This document shows, in pieces, positions 39,864 to 47,621 of a stretch of DNA of 64,000 nucleotides. The notes below the pieces were generated by a model that made no database searches, was not told where the DNA came from, and was given only the letters and a program-made list of their open reading frames with translations. The stretch's first letter is position 1; each line of letters starts with the position of its first letter. Source of the DNA: Thermanaerovibrio acidaminovorans DSM 6589 (GTDB taxonomy: Bacteria; Synergistota; Synergistia; Synergistales; Synergistaceae); NCBI RefSeq assembly GCF_000024905.1, contig NC_013522.1:1736001-1800000 (forward strand). The letters are read 5' to 3'. The position numbers and the translations under genes were made by a program.

Positions 39864-40757
39864 ATGAGCGATGACAGGATAGAGGAACTGCTGGAGCGTC
39901 TGTACGACGCCTCCGACGACGATGAGATCCGCTCCATCTCCCGGGAGATCCTCAAGCTGGATCCCACCCACCCCTCCGCCCGGGTGGCCCTCTGGACCCT
40001 GAAGGACGAGGAGGAGGCCCTAAGGTCCGTGGGGGACCTGGAGGAGGCGCTGGACGAGGTAATCAAGCGCATGGGGGGCAGGCCGGAGGGTATCTACGAC
40101 GAGAACCCCCTGACCCCCACCTACGGGGAGGCGCTCATGCACCTGGCGGCGGCCAACCACTCCCTGGAGAGGTACGACAGGGCGGAGGCCTGCGCCAGAG
40201 ACCTGGTGGCCTTCGACCCCGAGGAGGAGGCATTCCCCGGCAGGCTCATCCTATACAGGACCCTGCTGGACAAGGGGGACTGGGACCTGATCCTGGACAC
40301 CTACGACCAGGACGGCATCGACAGCCCCGCGGGGGCCCACGCCAGGGCCATAGCCCTCATCGAGAAGGATGCCCCGGAGGGCGAGATCTGGGAGGCGGTG
40401 CTGGAAGCCTTCTCCCTGGCTCCGGACCTGCCCTTCGTAATCCTGGGCCTGGAGGCCCTGCCGGACGACGAGGAGGGGGAGTACGACCAGACTTTCCACC
40501 AGGCGGCGTACCTGGACGCCCCCTGGAACTCCAGCGACGATCGGCTGGTCTACCTCTACCTCACCGCCCTGCTGGTGGGGGTCCTCACCGGCCGGCTGGA
40601 GATGGACGAGGCGGAGGACCTGGAGGACCTGCTGAGGGAGCACCCCAAGGGGGAGGCATTGCGCCGCCTGATCACCTTCGGGGGCCCCAGGCCCGACGAG
40701 CCGTCCGAGCTGGACCAGTGGGCCATAGGCAAGCTCATGGAGGTCCTGGTGGACTGA
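39864..40757 (+). CDS. Acidic TPR-like repeat protein of unknown function
   Basis: 297 aa, very acidic. Helical hairpins typical of tetratricopeptide repeats are visible, for example ISREILKLDPTHPSARVAL (about 24-42) and YDRAEACARDLVAFDPEEE (about 104-122). It has no membrane segment or catalytic motif. A TATAAT at 39826-39831 is a good -10 for it, though the -35 is weak, and GAAGGGGGAAATC supplies the ribosome site. It may be a scaffold protein. It is the last plus-strand gene before a hairpin that separates it from the convergent kinase operon. Confidence 0.72.
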   Translation: MSDDRIEELLERLYDASDDDEIRSISREILKLDPTHPSARVALWTLKDEEEALRSVGDLEEALDEVIKRMGGRPEGIYDENPLTPTYGEALMHLAAANHSLERYDRAEACARDLVAFDPEEEAFPGRLILYRTLLDKGDWDLILDTYDQDGIDSPAGAHARAIALIEKDAPEGEIWEAVLEAFSLAPDLPFVILGLEALPDDEEGEYDQTFHQAAYLDAPWNSSDDRLVYLYLTALLVGVLTGRLEMDEAEDLEDLLREHPKGEALRRLITFGGPRPDEPSELDQWAIGKLMEVLVD

Positions 40758-40791
40758 GAGACCGGGGCAAACCCAAGCAAAGGGGCTCACC

Positions 40792-40816
40792 GGGGGCGGG
40801 GGACATCCCCGCCCCC
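40792..40816. terminator. Strong GC hairpin between convergent genes
   Basis: GGGGGCGGGG and CCCCGCCCCC form a 10-base-pair stem with a 5-base loop, followed by ATTTA on the plus strand. It lies between the TPR-like gene and the end of the kinase operon and can terminate transcription from the left. Confidence 0.7.
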
Positions 40817-40819
40817 CAT

Positions 40820-41689
40820 TTACGCCCTGCCCCGGGATGCGAAGATGCGATGCCCCACCCGGGCGAACAGGTCGAAGAAGGTCTCCTCCCCCCTCACACC
40901 CTCCAGGGCCTCCCGGCTCACCACCCACAGGTCCACCGGCACCGAGGGGCGCGCCAGGTCCTCCCCGAAGGGGCAAAGCAGCTCCCGGAGGGCCGCCGCC
41001 CGGGCCTCGTCCCGGGTCACCGCCACCCACCAGGTGAGCGAGTCCTGCCCCTCTGCGTCCAGGTCGAACCGGGAACCCATCCGGGCCCTCCTGTCCCGGA
41101 TCCAGCGGTGTGCCATGGCCAGGGCCCGGCAAGCCTCCTCCAATCCCCAACCATCCTCCAGGACCATCAGGAGCCGGTCCGCGTTGGCCAGCGCATCGGG
41201 GCTGTCCTCCCCCTCCAGGTGACTCAGGTAGCTGGCGAAGTCGTACCGGGAGAGCACCAGGAGGTCCAGCTGGAGCTCCCCCTTCCCCGCTTCCCCGGGG
41301 CTCCACCGCACCCTGCCCCCATCCACCCGAAAGGCCAGGTCCGGGGCCTCGAAGGGCAGCGCCGCCCCGGGGACGAACTCCCTCTTGCCCCAGCGGCCCA
41401 CGAAGGCCCCCCGGAGGGCCCACTCCAGCCGGTTCCTCTCCAGCCACCGATCGGGATCCCGGCGGTCCTCCCCGGGCTCCTGGTCCAGGAAGAACTGGCC
41501 CCTCACCTCCCGGAATGCCATGGCACCCCGGGGAGTGAGGCGGAAGGCACCGCCCGGGAGAGGCTCCAGGAGCCCCTCCCGGGTGAGACGGTAAACCCCG
41601 GCGGGGTCCTCCCCGGCCCTCCGGATCAGTTCCAGGTCCCACACCGGATGTCCCCGGTCGAACAAAAGGAGCAGCGACTCCCAGCCCAT
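40820..41689 (-). CDS. Unknown protein with possible winged-helix start, end of kinase operon
   Basis: 289 aa, soluble. The first 70 residues (WDLELIRRAG, VYRLTREGLLEPL, AFRLTPRGAMAF) look like a winged-helix module that might bind DNA or protein. The rest is Arg/Glu/Trp-rich and unrecognised; WWVAVTRDEARAAALREL is part of a helical region near residue 210. No catalytic motif was seen. It begins one base after the stop of the secreted-protein gene, as the last of five coupled genes, so it probably serves the same process as the kinase and phosphatase. Confidence 0.62.
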   Translation of the reverse strand: MGWESLLLLFDRGHPVWDLELIRRAGEDPAGVYRLTREGLLEPLPGGAFRLTPRGAMAFREVRGQFFLDQEPGEDRRDPDRWLERNRLEWALRGAFVGRWGKREFVPGAALPFEAPDLAFRVDGGRVRWSPGEAGKGELQLDLLVLSRYDFASYLSHLEGEDSPDALANADRLLMVLEDGWGLEEACRALAMAHRWIRDRRARMGSRFDLDAEGQDSLTWWVAVTRDEARAAALRELLCPFGEDLARPSVPVDLWVVSREALEGVRGEETFFDLFARVGHRIFASRGRA

Positions 41690-41690
41690 C

Positions 41691-42878
41691 CTACCGCCCC
41701 CCCTTGGGGTGCTTCAGGGAGCTCCCCAGCACCTCCACCTCCCGCCGCCAGGTGCCGCTGGGGTAGGTCCTCTCCACCCGCCCCTCGGGGAGCAGCTTGA
41801 TGACCCGGACCGGGGCGGAGCCGTCCCCTTCAAGCCGCAGGACCACCCGGTCCCGCTGGGGGAACAGCACGTAGGTCCAGCCGGACAGGGACGATACGGG
41901 CCCCCCGTAGGGGGTGCCGTCGGGTCTCAGCACCTTCACCCGAGCCCCGGGCCCCACCGCCGCAAGGCACTGGCCGCTGCCCTTAAGGTACCCCGACACC
42001 AGGGCCTCCGCCGCCGCCCCCTTCTGGAGCATGGCCCCCAGGGCCTCCAGGGCCTGGACGGTGGGCTTGGACCTCCTGCCCAGCTCCTGCCCCGCCTCCA
42101 TGGCCCCCTTGGGCAGGGACGCCATGGCCCAACCCACCGCGGCGGGATCGAAGGCCCCGTTTAGGCCGTAGAGGAACTGCCACTCCGGAGGCAGCTCCGT
42201 CTCCTTCAGGTTCAGGCGGAACCGCACCGGGGTCAGCGCACCCCCCAGGGCGCTGGACCGGAACCCGAGCGACACGGTCACGTCCCCGGACACCACGTCC
42301 CCGGGGAGCACGAAGCCCAGCTCCCGGTGGTCCATGGGGAACACCCGCTCTCCCACCTCCGCCGCCCCGGATAGCCTCACCGCATCCCCCTGGATCCCCA
42401 TGACCATCCCGAGGTCAAGGGAGGGGTGCAGGGGATCATAGGCCTCCACCCGGACCAGCCTTGGCATACCCCGGATCGCCATGGGCACCTGGAGGCTCCG
42501 GGCCTCCACCCGCATCCCCAGGTCGAACTCCCCCCGGAAGACCTCGACTCCCCCCTCCTGGGCCACCACCGCCTCCCGGACGGGGGAAACCTCCATGGGT
42601 CCCCGGTAGGTGTAGGTGATCTCCACCGAGTCCCCCTTGGCCAAGGAGATCTCAAGCGCCTCGCCGGATACCCCCTTGGCGCTCAGGGTGGCATCTCCGC
42701 TGGAGGGGTAGATCACGTAGGTGCCATCCCTTGGGGCCACCAGGACCAGCCGGTTCACCGCCCCGGGCACCGCCGGTATGGCGGGAAGGTAGGACCTGAA
42801 GTCCCCCCAGGCCCACCCGGGCACCAGCAGCCCCAGGGCCAGGGCCAGAAGCCCCGCCCGGATCCTAAGACGTATCAT
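41691..42878 (-). CDS. Secreted beta-rich protein of unknown function
   Basis: 395 aa. A typical Sec signal peptide is present: basic MIRLRIR, hydrophobic LLALALGLLVPG, and a probable cut after AWG (about residue 25). The mature part is mostly beta-strand, with repeated short blocks such as LVLVAPRDGTYVIYPSSG and TYVLFPQRDRVVLRLEG that resemble each other and may be two copies of an extracytoplasmic beta-sandwich. No enzyme motif was seen. ATG overlaps the kinase stop by 4 bases. It could be the extracytoplasmic ligand or sensor for the kinase. Confidence 0.72.
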   Translation of the reverse strand: MIRLRIRAGLLALALGLLVPGWAWGDFRSYLPAIPAVPGAVNRLVLVAPRDGTYVIYPSSGDATLSAKGVSGEALEISLAKGDSVEITYTYRGPMEVSPVREAVVAQEGGVEVFRGEFDLGMRVEARSLQVPMAIRGMPRLVRVEAYDPLHPSLDLGMVMGIQGDAVRLSGAAEVGERVFPMDHRELGFVLPGDVVSGDVTVSLGFRSSALGGALTPVRFRLNLKETELPPEWQFLYGLNGAFDPAAVGWAMASLPKGAMEAGQELGRRSKPTVQALEALGAMLQKGAAAEALVSGYLKGSGQCLAAVGPGARVKVLRPDGTPYGGPVSSLSGWTYVLFPQRDRVVLRLEGDGSAPVRVIKLLPEGRVERTYPSGTWRREVEVLGSSLKHPKGGR

Positions 42879-44260
42879 CTTCCATCACCCTCCTTGTGCT
42901 TCAGGGCCTCCATCAGCTCCGATAGCCCCGGATACAGGGGATCCAGCTTCATCAGGGCCTCCGCCCTCTCCCGGGCCAGGTCAAGCCGGCCCAGCCCGAG
43001 GGCGGACCGGGCGGCGATGAGCAGCGCCCCCCTGGGGTCCCTTAATGACCCCAGGGCCTCCTGGGACCACTTGAGGGCCCCCTCCAGGTCCCCCTCCTGG
43101 AAGAGCCTCCGGGCCTTGGCCAGGGGCTCCTCCGCCGGCGGGGTCTCTGGACCGGGCCTTTGAGCCGGGGGGGCCTCAGGGATCTCCTCCCGCGCATCGC
43201 CCGGATGCTCTCCCTGGTCATCCCCCTGGGGGAACACAAGGGACGGAACCGATCGGTTTATGGACCTCAGCCCCGACTCGATGGCCCTCCTCCCCAGGGC
43301 CGTCAGTGCCCCCAGGGCCAGGAAGAGCCCCAAGAGGGCAGCCAACCCCAGGGTCCTCATGGGGACCGACTGGGCAAGCCCCCTCCCCCGGGATGTCAGA
43401 TCCTCCATCAGGCTCCGGACGTCCCGGTAGCGCCTGTCGGGGTCCAGCTCAAGGGCCTTCAGGATGGCCCTCCTGCCCCTCCTGGGGACCCCGGGGGGGA
43501 ACCTCAGCGCCTCCCCCCGGGTCCTGGCTGCCAGGTCCGGCGGGGGGAAGCCACAGACGCACCGGTAGAGGGTGGCCCCCAGGGCGTAGACGTCCGTCCA
43601 GGGCCCCTGGTGCCCCCCCTCCCCGTACTGCTCCGGCGGGGCGTAGCCGGGCTTGAGGACCGCCGAGGAGCTCAACGTCACCAGGCTGACCCGGGCGGCG
43701 CCGAAGTCGATAAGGGTGCAGCGCCGATCTTTCGAGACCATCACGTTCTCGGGGCTGACATCCCGATGCAGGCATCCCAGGGCGTGCACCCGGTCCAACG
43801 CCTCCATGACGGGGCCCAATAGCTCCAGCGCCTCATCGAGGGGGATCCTGCCCCCTCGCTCTTCCAGAAACTCCCGAAGGGTGCGGCCCTCCACGTAGGT
43901 CATCACCATGTAGGCGGTGCCGTTGGCCCTGAAGTAGTCCCGGACGGAGACTATCCCGTCGATGCCCTGGAGCCTTGCCAGGGTCCTGGCCTCCTCCAGG
44001 AACCGGCCCATGCCCTCCTCGAAGGGCTCCTCCTCCCCGGGGGGGCAGTAGACCGTGCCGTCCGGGGCCCGGAAGGCCAGCCCCATGGGGAAGTACTCCT
44101 TAACCGCCAGCTTCAGCTCCAGCACCCGGTCCCAGGCCACGTAGGTGATACCGAACCCCCCCCGGCCCAGGAGGGATCCGATCCTGTAGCGGTCCATGAG
44201 CACCGATCCCACCGGCAGGCGTATGTCCCGTATGTCCCGGTCCACGACTACCGCCCTCAA
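42875..44260 (-). CDS. Transmembrane Ser/Thr protein kinase with C-terminal TPR-like tail
   Basis: 461 aa. Hanks-type motifs are intact: LGRGGFGITYVAWD (glycine loop), LAVKEYFP (ATP lysine), CLHRDVSPENVMV (HRD loop), LIDFGAARVS (DFG) and a Pro/Glu activation end KPGYAPPEQYGEGG. The kinase domain spans about 20-285, then a membrane segment LGLAALLGLFLALGALTAL (about 310-328), a Pro/Glu-rich linker and a helical tail (about 385-455) resembling one or two TPRs, placed outside the membrane. There are no PASTA repeats. It is preceded by a PP2C phosphatase gene (4-base overlap), the usual antagonistic pair. Confidence 0.93.
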   Translation of the reverse strand: MRAVVVDRDIRDIRLPVGSVLMDRYRIGSLLGRGGFGITYVAWDRVLELKLAVKEYFPMGLAFRAPDGTVYCPPGEEEPFEEGMGRFLEEARTLARLQGIDGIVSVRDYFRANGTAYMVMTYVEGRTLREFLEERGGRIPLDEALELLGPVMEALDRVHALGCLHRDVSPENVMVSKDRRCTLIDFGAARVSLVTLSSSAVLKPGYAPPEQYGEGGHQGPWTDVYALGATLYRCVCGFPPPDLAARTRGEALRFPPGVPRRGRRAILKALELDPDRRYRDVRSLMEDLTSRGRGLAQSVPMRTLGLAALLGLFLALGALTALGRRAIESGLRSINRSVPSLVFPQGDDQGEHPGDAREEIPEAPPAQRPGPETPPAEEPLAKARRLFQEGDLEGALKWSQEALGSLRDPRGALLIAARSALGLGRLDLARERAEALMKLDPLYPGLSELMEALKHKEGDGR

Positions 44261-44943
44261 AGGATCACCAACGCCAGGGTGGCGTTGTCCTGGTAGGGCC
44301 TGCCCTGGGCCTCCACCTCCTGGAGGATCCCCCTGGCATCGCTTCCCCGGGACAGCGCCATGGCGATCCGGTCCTCATGGAGCGACCGGTAGACCCCGTC
44401 GGAAACCACCAGGACCCCCTCCCCTGCCTCCAGCGGTAGCGGCGCCTCCGAGGTAGAGATCTCGGTCAGGTTCTCTATGCCTATGAAGCTGGTTATCATC
44501 TCCCCCGCGGGCCCCGGGACCGGACCGCGCCCCAGGAGGACCATCTCGGAGGACACGTTATGGTCCAGGGAGAGCCTGGAAAGGCGCCCCCCCTTGAAGA
44601 GGTAGACCCGGCAGTCCCCCACGGAGGCCCACTCCAGCGTGCCATCCCTCAGATTCACCGCCGCCACCGCCATGGTGGCCCCGGTCCTGCCCAGGATCCC
44701 CCCCTGGGAGGCCCACCGGTGCACCGCCGCCTGGGCGGCCAGAACCGCATCCAGGGGCGAACCTCCCGCGTCCAGGACCCCCACCGAGGCGGACAGGGCC
44801 CTCTGGGCCGCCTCATCCCCCCGGATCATGCCCCCCATCCCATCCACCACGACGCAGTAAGCCTTATCTCCCCCGGTGCCCACCGCGTAGGCATCCTGCT
44901 GGGTTGGCCTCGAGCCCTGGATCGAGAACCCGTCGATCCTCAG
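44257..44943 (-). CDS. PP2C-type Ser/Thr phosphatase, probable CTG start
   Basis: 228 aa if it starts at CTG 44943. PP2C metal-binding residues are all present: PTQQDAYAVG (the RxxxQD block at residues 12-17), VVVDGMGG, VLVVSDGVYRSL, and QDNATLALVIL. The first conventional start (GTG at 44883) would remove the first aspartate block. An in-frame stop lies only two codons upstream of the CTG, so no ATG, GTG or TTG can restore it. The CTG overlaps the TGA of the UPF0182 gene (CTGA), and GGGGGGTG lies about 7 bases before it. It should dephosphorylate targets of the kinase encoded next. Confidence 0.88.
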   Translation of the reverse strand: MRIDGFSIQGSRPTQQDAYAVGTGGDKAYCVVVDGMGGMIRGDEAAQRALSASVGVLDAGGSPLDAVLAAQAAVHRWASQGGILGRTGATMAVAAVNLRDGTLEWASVGDCRVYLFKGGRLSRLSLDHNVSSEMVLLGRGPVPGPAGEMITSFIGIENLTEISTSEAPLPLEAGEGVLVVSDGVYRSLHEDRIAMALSRGSDARGILQEVEAQGRPYQDNATLALVIL

Positions 44944-47621
44944 GGGACATCACCCCCCGCCATCCGCTCCCTCATGGTCCTCATTACCTCCTCCAGCTCA
45001 GCCATGGCCCTTCCGTAGGCGGCGAAGTCGTAGTCCTTTAGGGCCTCCCTCCCCCTCTCCAGGGCACCCAGGGCCCGCTCCACCAGCTGGGACAGGTCAC
45101 CCTCCCCCCCGGAGGGCCCGGCAGGGGGCTCCGGGGCCTTGGTCTTGGCGGGGCCTAACAGGCGGTCCGCCGCCTCCTCCAGCGTCTCCCCCCAGGCCAC
45201 GTCCCCACCGGAGGATAGCACCACCCGCTTCAGCTCCGGCAGCTCCCCCGTCTCCGCCTTGAGGTATATGGGCTGCACGTAGAGGATGGACCTGCCCATG
45301 GGGAGCACCAACAGGTCCCCCCGGAACACGTCGGAGCCCCGCTGGCTCCAGAGGGACAGCTGGGCGGATATCTCCGGGTTCTGGTCTATCAGGGCCTCCA
45401 CCTGGGTGGGGCCGAATAGCAGGCTCCGCTTGGGGTACTTGTAGACCAGCAGCTGACCGTACCGGTCCCGGTCGCACCGGGCGGCCATCCACCCCACCAT
45501 GTTGCTCCTCCCGGCGGGCATGAAGGGCAGCATCAGCACGAACTCCCTGCCGGCCCCCTCCCCCAGGTCCACCGTTACGTAGTTGGGCCCGGTGGGACGC
45601 CGGGCCTCCTCGGAGGACACCTGCCACAGGTCCTCCCGGTTGTAGAAGGTGTTCGGGTCCTCCATGTGATAGAGCCCCATGGCGTAGGCCTGCACCTCGA
45701 AGAGGTCCTTGGGGTACCGGAGGTGGTCCCTCAGGTCCCGGGGCATCTCGGATATGTCCGAGAAGAGCCCCGGGAAGATCCGCCGGTAGGGGACTATCGA
45801 CGGATCGTCCATGGCGTAGAACCGGACCGTGCCGTCGTAGGCGTCCACCGTCACCTTAACGCTGTTCCTCAGGTAGTTGACCCTCATCTCCCTGCCCCCG
45901 ATCCGGGCGGTCACCGGCCTTGAGTAGGGGAAGCGGGAGCTGGCCACGTAACCGTCCATCATCCAGACTATCCGGCCCCGGTGGACCACCGGGTACGGGT
46001 CCGAGTCGAACAGGAGGAAGGGGGCGATGCGACCCACCATGGCATTTATGTTCCTATTAAACAAAATCCTACTCTCATTAGTCAAGGCGCTGGTGAAGAG
46101 GATCTCCAGGTCCTTGAGGCGCAGTGCGAAGGCAAGCCGCCTGAGGGGGGAGCCGACGGGCACCCCTCCGGAGCCCTGGTAGGTGCTTCTCACGTTGGAG
46201 TCCCCGCTGGGGTAGTCGAACTCCTTGACCTTGGTCCTCACCAGGGCGTAGGGGTAGTCCATCTCGCCGAAGTAGACCTGGGGGACCGAGATGGAGATCA
46301 GGTCCGATGCGGGGGGGATGTCCCTCACGATCAGGTTGGGCAGCCCCCCGGGTTGCACCTGGTTTACCAGGTTCATCACCAGCCCGTAGCCGTGGGTGAA
46401 CTCCAGGTGCCGGTTCACCCAGGTCTGGCTTCGGAGCTTCCGGTGGTCCAGCTCCCGGACGGAGAGCATCACCTGCCGCTGCTCGCCCCGCAGATTGTAC
46501 CGGTCCACGTCCACCTGGATGAACTCGTAGTAGGACCGGATCTCCTGGAGCTGCTTGTAGGTCCGAAGCAGGGGCTCGTAGTCCCAGAGCCTCACGTCCC
46601 CCATGCCCCGGCGGAGCTCCTCCCCGGTGACATGGGGGGTCGGGTCCGTCTGGACCGTCCTGGCGGAGTCGATGCCGTAGCCCCTCCGGGTCATCCGGAT
46701 GTGGGACTCTATGTAGGGCCGCTCCAGCTGGAACTCGTTGGGGCGCACCACCAGCTGGTCCACCAGGGGGGGGAGTCCCCCCCGGGCCGCGAAGAGGGCA
46801 AGCAGGGCCACGGCGGACAGTTTGAGCCCCCGGAGGGACATGCGCCCCGCCATGATCCAGACCCCCATAGCCAGCAGGAGGGCGATGTTGAGGATCGATA
46901 TGGGGAGAGCCACCCTGGCCTGGGCGAAGGAGGCCCCGTAGACCACCCGGCCGGGGAAGCCCACCATCCCAAGGAGGTCCAGCCACATCCGGGCGGCCAG
47001 GAGGATGGGCAGGGCCCCCGAGAGCCCCCGAAGGGCCAGGAGGCCCTGGGGGGATATGCCCCGGTCCCTAAGCCGAAGGAGCGACAGGATCCCGCCCATG
47101 AACCAGGTTCTCCACCCTAGCCCCACCAGCCCCCTTAGGGCCGGCAGGACGAACACGTAGAAGCCCGCGTCCAGGCCGAAGAGGGGGTCCCTCACCCCCA
47201 GGGGCTCGAAGGCCAAGGCCACGGGCAGCTTGAGCCATAGGGAGGCCCCCTCCCGCCCCACCAGGGCGGCGGGGAGCAGGGCCAGCATCAACCGGCGCCT
47301 GGGAGGCATGGACCCCAGGGAGGCCCAGAGGAACGGCAGGGAAACCAAGGTCCCCAGGCAGAAACCCAGGACCTTAAGGAGCACCCGCCGCAGGAAGACC
47401 CCCTGGAGATCCAGGGACCGGAACCACCAAAGCTCGGTGAGGAACCAGGGGAGGGCCAGGAGGGACAGCAGGAGGAGAAGCCCCAGCAGGAGGAGAGCCC
47501 GCCTCCCCCGGGGCCTCAGGGCCTCCCTGCCCATCCGCTCCAGGTCCGGGAGGTCGTAGTTGGACCCCTCCCCCTCTATCCACTTCCCCCCGCCGAAGGG
47601 CCAAAAGTCACCTAACTTCAA
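44940..47621 (-). CDS. UPF0182 family large membrane protein
   Basis: 893 aa from TTG at 47621, which has GGGGGTG six bases upstream; TTG at 47645 is an alternative. About seven or eight membrane segments lie in the first 330 residues, followed by a large extracytoplasmic domain (about 340-800) with the family signature ESRILFNRNINAMV and FLLFDSDPYPV, and a short helical tail after 810. The family (COG1615) occurs in many bacteria and has no established function. As first gene of an operon with PP2C and a kinase, it may be a target or sensor of phosphorylation control. Confidence 0.9.
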   Translation of the reverse strand: MKLGDFWPFGGGKWIEGEGSNYDLPDLERMGREALRPRGRRALLLLGLLLLLSLLALPWFLTELWWFRSLDLQGVFLRRVLLKVLGFCLGTLVSLPFLWASLGSMPPRRRLMLALLPAALVGREGASLWLKLPVALAFEPLGVRDPLFGLDAGFYVFVLPALRGLVGLGWRTWFMGGILSLLRLRDRGISPQGLLALRGLSGALPILLAARMWLDLLGMVGFPGRVVYGASFAQARVALPISILNIALLLAMGVWIMAGRMSLRGLKLSAVALLALFAARGGLPPLVDQLVVRPNEFQLERPYIESHIRMTRRGYGIDSARTVQTDPTPHVTGEELRRGMGDVRLWDYEPLLRTYKQLQEIRSYYEFIQVDVDRYNLRGEQRQVMLSVRELDHRKLRSQTWVNRHLEFTHGYGLVMNLVNQVQPGGLPNLIVRDIPPASDLISISVPQVYFGEMDYPYALVRTKVKEFDYPSGDSNVRSTYQGSGGVPVGSPLRRLAFALRLKDLEILFTSALTNESRILFNRNINAMVGRIAPFLLFDSDPYPVVHRGRIVWMMDGYVASSRFPYSRPVTARIGGREMRVNYLRNSVKVTVDAYDGTVRFYAMDDPSIVPYRRIFPGLFSDISEMPRDLRDHLRYPKDLFEVQAYAMGLYHMEDPNTFYNREDLWQVSSEEARRPTGPNYVTVDLGEGAGREFVLMLPFMPAGRSNMVGWMAARCDRDRYGQLLVYKYPKRSLLFGPTQVEALIDQNPEISAQLSLWSQRGSDVFRGDLLVLPMGRSILYVQPIYLKAETGELPELKRVVLSSGGDVAWGETLEEAADRLLGPAKTKAPEPPAGPSGGEGDLSQLVERALGALERGREALKDYDFAAYGRAMAELEEVMRTMRERMAGGDVP
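46056..46085 (-). promoter_or_regulatory. Possible internal promoter inside the UPF0182 gene
   Basis: On the minus strand TTGACT (46080-46085) and TTTAAT (46056-46061) are 18 bases apart in an AT-rich patch unlike the surrounding codons. It would drive the phosphatase and kinase genes downstream. The patch encodes a conserved motif of the family, so protein constraint is an alternative explanation for its existence, though not for its AT-rich codons. Confidence 0.4.

Follow-up and report, generated by a model that had tools for sequence, protein, structure and literature searches.

A kinase/phosphatase pair set within a UPF0182-SEC gene pair in Thermanaerovibrio acidaminovorans, a candidate lineage-specific signalling operon

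Introduction

The signals sensed by bacterial serine/threonine (Ser/Thr) kinases are a long-standing question, usually complicated by the presence of several kinases per genome. Pairs of a kinase and a PP2C phosphatase, and operons that join a kinase to envelope proteins, are already known, and they are the setting in which we describe a five-gene operon of Thermanaerovibrio acidaminovorans encoding a UPF0182 membrane protein, a PP2C-type phosphatase, a Hanks-type Ser/Thr kinase, a secreted protein (SEC) and a soluble protein with a predicted winged helix (UNK). The operon lies in a stretch of 64,000 nucleotides of strain DSM 6589 (contig NC_013522.1, positions 1,736,001 to 1,800,000), hereafter the window, in whose numbering all positions are given. 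T. acidaminovorans Su883T is a Gram-negative anaerobe of the Synergistota with a genome of 1,848,474 bp (PMC3035242).

By analogy, the best model for how such an operon might work appears to be the GlnH-GlnX-PknG system of Actinobacteria, an operon in which the TPR domain of PknG is proposed to contact GlnX on behalf of GlnH (PMC8546545, PMC9769921). Both operons combine a Ser/Thr kinase that has a TPR or TPR-like part with a multi-pass membrane protein and a protein of the periplasm. However, GlnH is a solute-binding lipoprotein and GlnX a four-transmembrane protein, and SEC and UPF0182 are unlike either; the pknG operon is described with glnX and glnH only, whereas the window operon includes PP2C; and the window kinase, unlike PknG, has a transmembrane segment of its own with the TPR-like part outside. 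PknG is also described as signalling via FHA substrates (OdhI/GarA), whereas the window genome gave no FHA match. The PpkA-PppA-Fha1 pathway of the Pseudomonas type VI system, with TagQRST, shares a transmembrane PpkA-type kinase with a PP2C partner and with envelope proteins encoded upstream, but differs in its FHA substrate, and UPF0182 and SEC have not been described as Tag proteins. The PASTA kinase/Stp pairs (PknB, Stk1) share the single-transmembrane kinase and the PP2C partner and differ in their PASTA repeats, which the window kinase does not carry. What is new here is the partnership with UPF0182 and SEC, the absence of FHA proteins and the winged-helix partner; no link between UPF0182 and a kinase was found in the open-licence papers naming UPF0182.

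Gene order of the operon and its conservation

The kinase and phosphatase genes sit between UPF0182 and SEC, that is, within a gene pair that is otherwise conserved. All five open reading frames are on the minus strand in the order UPF0182 (44940..47621, 893 amino acids from TTG), PP2C (44257..44943, 228 amino acids from CTG), kinase (42875..44260, 461 amino acids from TTG), SEC (41691..42878, 395 amino acids) and UNK (40820..41689, 289 amino acids). The first three junctions are 4-base overlaps (CTGA, TTGA and ATGA, respectively) and SEC and UNK are 1 base apart (TAG-G-ATG). A sequence-only reading of the window had taken these four tight junctions as a sign that the five proteins are made together, and all four were confirmed, two of them relying on CTG or TTG starts. 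The least secure point of the annotation is the start of PP2C. The first ATG, GTG or TTG codon in its frame is the GTG at 44883, with none upstream of the R..QD motif; as a start at 44883 would remove this motif, both the motif and the overlap with UPF0182 are kept only if translation begins at the CTG at 44943.

The same five-gene order was found in 4 of 188 Synergistota genomes, namely three of Thermanaerovibrio (the window genome, G174 and G175) and one of another genus (G124), with 60-73% identity to the window proteins over the kinase domains and 48-61% over UPF0182. This recurrence in four genomes of two genera confirms that the order exceeds chance and bears out the view of the five genes as an operon. 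The genes of the relatives are spaced 6-100 bp apart and do not overlap, so the exact overlaps, though not the gene order, are peculiar to T. acidaminovorans. G124 carries an additional small membrane gene between UPF0182 and PP2C, designated DUF5684-like from a Pfam match below the cut-off made on its relative in locus L088.

The proposal that the five genes form one system, to be doubted if their homologues were rarely adjacent in relatives, therefore stands only in part. The complete set is not widely conserved in the phylum although its order is kept in two genera, and what is rarely adjacent is the set of five, not UPF0182 and SEC, which are linked in 27 of the 31 Synergistaceae genomes that have both. 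The five genes are thus two units, the UPF0182-SEC core and the kinase/PP2C pair, together with UNK, which is mostly a solo gene.

The UPF0182-SEC core

The UPF0182 protein matches PF03699 over its full length (769.6 bits against a cut-off of 27, E 4e-231), in agreement with the multi-pass protein of about 900 residues anticipated from the sequence, and compared with the family at large it is a full-length but divergent, long-branch member. In its AlphaFold2 (AF2) model (predicted local distance difference test, pLDDT, 84) the membrane region near the N terminus (residues ~39-285, 46767..47507, from hydropathy and the AF2 helices) contains about seven long helices, and the model suggests an architecture of an N-terminal membrane bundle, a beta-rich extracytoplasmic domain of ~570 amino acids and a C-terminal helical hairpin. 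No structure in the PDB matched this fold at E<=0.001; the best match had an E of 0.043, with negligible TM-scores.

SEC is beta-rich in its N-terminal part (~1-185) and has a conserved region towards the C terminus (~228-395). Its N terminus resembles a Sec signal peptide (residues 1-25, 42804..42878, from hydropathy, with the cleavage site placed by inspection) and has no lipobox cysteine, consistent with the Sec-secreted beta-rich protein described earlier. As comparison with Pfam, NCBIfam, PHROGs and the sequences of the PDB assigned SEC to no known family, we regard it on sequence comparison as a new family; the reservation that it and UNK might be well-known families with unrelated roles was not borne out for either. 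By predicted topology UPF0182 is located in the inner membrane and SEC in the periplasm.

UPF0182 is present in 92 and SEC, by profile search, in 47 of the 188 Synergistota genomes. In the 27 linked cases the distance from UPF0182 to the downstream SEC gene is 0.4-3.4 kb and both genes have the same orientation, usually with no kinase, and most of these pairs are directly adjoining or have one small membrane gene between them; in two of the four unlinked genomes (G173 and G125) UPF0182 is close to a contig end. Six Synergistaceae have SEC but not UPF0182. This distribution shows UPF0182-SEC to be a widespread core and a conserved operonic pair.

Outside the Synergistota, a sample of 341 genomes from the class to which an uncultured Clostridia bacterium belongs included 131 with UPF0182. 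None of kinase, PP2C, SEC and UNK was found near 50 sampled Clostridia UPF0182 loci within the stretches read, some loci having been covered in duplicate and 30 only to flanks of ~1.5 kb. UPF0182 was also absent from 10 genomes with related kinases. In the UPF0182 tree both operon lineages are placed at the base of the Synergistaceae, and the Thermanaerovibrio branch is long (1.19), which is consistent with a changed role. The kinase pair may have entered UPF0182-SEC in the operon lineages, or it may go back to the ancestor of the family and have been lost elsewhere.

Several further arrangements of these families were observed. Many Synergistaceae (L088:12338-13096, L101, L104, L090, L106 and others) encode, after SEC, a third secreted protein, ~250 amino acids long, in the order UPF0182, DUF5684-like, SEC C-terminal form and ~250-residue protein; two members tested gave no Pfam family. 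In another family of the Synergistota, f10 (L193, L194, L195, L196, L197, L198 and L204), secreted proteins of ~1100 residues carry both SEC regions in the C-terminal half, behind a region of ~480 residues that was assigned to no family, and their genes lie away from UPF0182. Among the Clostridia loci (L246-L252), UPF0182 immediately follows the genes for smc and an ftsY-like SRP (signal recognition particle) GTPase in one group, and in others it adjoins the gene of a 3H-domain regulator or of a seryl-tRNA synthetase. Spermidine genes have been reported in the context of UPF0182 in Leptospirillum (PMC7231039); they were not among the adjacent genes annotated in this analysis.

The kinase and phosphatase pair

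The kinase (Pkinase, 98 bits) carries all of the motifs GRGGFG, VKEYF, HRD, DFG and PPE, and the phosphatase (PP2C_2, 42 bits) carries R..QD, DGMGG, GD, SDG and DN, so that the catalytic motifs of both are intact and the pair is complete as first described, the N-terminal R motif of PP2C depending on the CTG start. The two are the single PF00069 match and the single PP2C_2 match in the T. acidaminovorans genome. This count was made with the Pkinase profile for the window genome; in G174, G175 and G124 the window protein was used as the query and gave one match each.

The kinase has one membrane-spanning segment (residues 304-322, 43295..43351, hydropathy 2.3), which is kept in the four orthologues and is followed by a tail of 139 residues, on the periplasmic side by predicted topology. 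The earlier description of an extracytoplasmic tail free of PASTA repeats agrees with this, as no PASTA repeat was matched by Pfam in the kinase; the tail contains instead a TPR-like stretch (residues ~365-445, 42926..43168) that rests on weak TPR_2/TPR_14 matches and the alignment of the four orthologues. Both dedicated models stayed below their cut-offs, the PASTA kinase model NF033483 with 148 bits (cut-off 450) and the Stp1 model with 69 (cut-off 230). PADLOC matches to anti-phage kinases (PD-T4-6/Mad6) were also considered and set aside, being generic kinase-domain matches whose partner genes are absent.

The four operon kinases form one clade (support 98/91), sister to 16 other Synergistota kinases, and these nearest relatives are ~43-52% identical over the kinase domain. 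In the sister clade the neighbouring genes were annotated for L163, with the order FHA, VWA-FHA, FHA, PP2C and a Sel1-repeat kinase, and in part for L168, with VWA-FHA beside the kinase; several other sister clusters have similar reading frames and a PP2C match adjoining the kinase. These clusters thus share with the window operon the closest kinase sequences and a paired PP2C (the window PP2C is 32% identical to that of L163), but those annotated differ in carrying FHA and VWA proteins and, in L163, Sel1 repeats in the kinase, and in the clusters read the kinase has neither UPF0182 nor SEC nor UNK as a neighbour. FHA (PF00498) had no match in any of the four operon genomes, whereas all 16 sister-clade genomes were positive.

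The winged-helix protein UNK

The UNK family occurs in 102 of the 188 Synergistota genomes, mostly as a solo gene with no conserved neighbours among 20 loci read. It is found together with UPF0182 more often than expected by chance (odds ratio 4.5, with no correction for phylogeny). The winged helix that had been suspected in this protein is backed by its AF2 model (pLDDT 90.9), in which residues 1-70 (41480..41689) gave MarR-type Foldseek matches (probability 0.93-1.00 over ~66-74 columns), and members of the family have weak HTH_45/HemN_C matches in this predicted domain.

The winged helix is followed by an alpha/beta domain, for which two viral models were the sole convincing fold matches (E ~3e-6, TM ~0.5). 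One is gp146 of Bacillus phage G (L255:63-884), a member of Replic_Relax (PF13814), matched by Foldseek with E 3.5e-6, a TM-score of 0.51-0.54 and a root-mean-square deviation of 7.5. As the UNK family has no Pfam match and hhalign to gp146 gave a probability of 0.1%, sequence profiles give no support to kinship with Replic_Relax and the likeness is one of fold only; at the level of the models it hints at a common architecture of winged helix plus alpha/beta domain. Searches by sequence placed UNK in no known family. Five Asp and one Arg in the C-terminal part are invariant in the alignment of the family and may mark a site.

Possible mechanism and alternative explanations

The operon is probably a lineage-specific signalling unit. 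We read it, with a probability of about 40%, as a switch that works by reversible Ser/Thr phosphorylation and is coupled to the envelope module UPF0182-SEC. This reading is favoured by the retention of the gene order in two genera, the position of kinase and PP2C inside the UPF0182-SEC pair, the single supported clade of the operon kinases, the contrast in FHA content with the sister genomes, the predicted winged helix of UNK and the long UPF0182 branch of Thermanaerovibrio. Taking the gene order, the predicted topology, the intact motifs, the single-copy status and the absence of FHA as given, we infer a contact, a signal with its direction, and a target. SEC and the UPF0182 ectodomain would form a periplasmic complex that touches the kinase tail, an envelope change or a ligand would alter kinase activity, and PP2C, as a cytoplasmic phosphatase, would reset the phosphorylation. 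With no FHA reader in these genomes phosphorylation must act on other targets, of which UNK is the obvious candidate; in place of the FHA readers of the related kinases, it would be one phosphorylated or phosphorylation-dependent output, possibly acting on DNA. The initial suggestion of UPF0182 or SEC as the source of an envelope signal and of UNK as the intracellular output is in this sense possible. The more far-reaching view, of a new class of envelope-sensing kinase system whose receptor consists of UPF0182 with SEC as its dedicated partner in the periplasm, and in which a winged-helix regulator replaces the FHA reader, we consider unlikely.

Several findings weigh against a dedicated switch. 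UPF0182-SEC and UNK are each found without this kinase in most genomes and so must have functions of their own, and UNK shows no association with strong kinase matches (odds ratio 1.0). UNK is also preceded by a gap of 73-100 bp in two species. The four operon members of UPF0182 are not one clade in the UPF0182 tree, so that the history of the operon is not simple. Moreover, the kinase tail is far less conserved than the kinase domain, with 40/121 identities to G124 compared to 167/276.

Part of this evidence speaks for two other explanations, each of them somewhat less likely than the switch. The direction may be the reverse, UPF0182-SEC being a client envelope machine that is regulated, along with other targets, by a kinase/PP2C pair sensing elsewhere, through the tail or internally. 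In favour of such a client is the wider distribution of UPF0182-SEC, which also occurs where the kinase is missing, the kinase pair having been added in this lineage or lost elsewhere, but SEC and nearly all of the non-membrane part of UPF0182 are extracytoplasmic by the model, which leaves few cytoplasmic sites for phosphorylation (the ~37-residue N terminus and loops). Or the genes may be co-transcribed with no dedicated pathway, the sole kinase and phosphatase acting globally and their neighbours merely being co-expressed. Gene overlaps are expected in a compact genome that is 94% coding (PMC3035242), and the solo occurrence of UNK in most of the phylum and its independence of kinases agree with this as well; what makes it doubtful is that the arrangement is kept between two genera whose kinase domains are only ~60% identical, and that kinase and PP2C are placed within the otherwise conserved pair. 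A threonine phosphorylation pathway of the PpkA/PppA type in control of a secretion machine, on the model of type VI secretion in Pseudomonas, is very improbable. PpkA is the nearest solved kinase domain (172 bits over residues 21-286, the next bacterial kinase scoring ~103) and a PP2C is paired with both, yet the substrate of that pathway, Fha1 (PMC12133291), belongs to a protein type absent from this genome, and the operon contains no type VI gene.

As the genome has one detected kinase and one detected PP2C_2 phosphatase, both in a single operon, all Hanks-kinase signalling detected there would be abolished by a single deletion, and the accompanying genes supply candidates for input and output. 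The UPF0182-SEC pairing is in itself a concrete lead on UPF0182, a widespread family of unknown function, and if the reading of the pair as a receptor were true it would be the first function for this family.

Sequences flanking the operon

No sigma-70-like promoter was matched for the operon by consensus matching. In G124 a gene for a 1015-residue protein with no Pfam match (L084:15971-19015) immediately precedes UPF0182 in the same orientation, with 11 bp between the two. On the 3' side of the UNK stop in the window, a strong double hairpin on the minus strand (40766..40816; minimum free energy -39.2 kcal/mol, z -3.74) is likely the end of the operon, common to it and to the convergent gene at 39864-40757.

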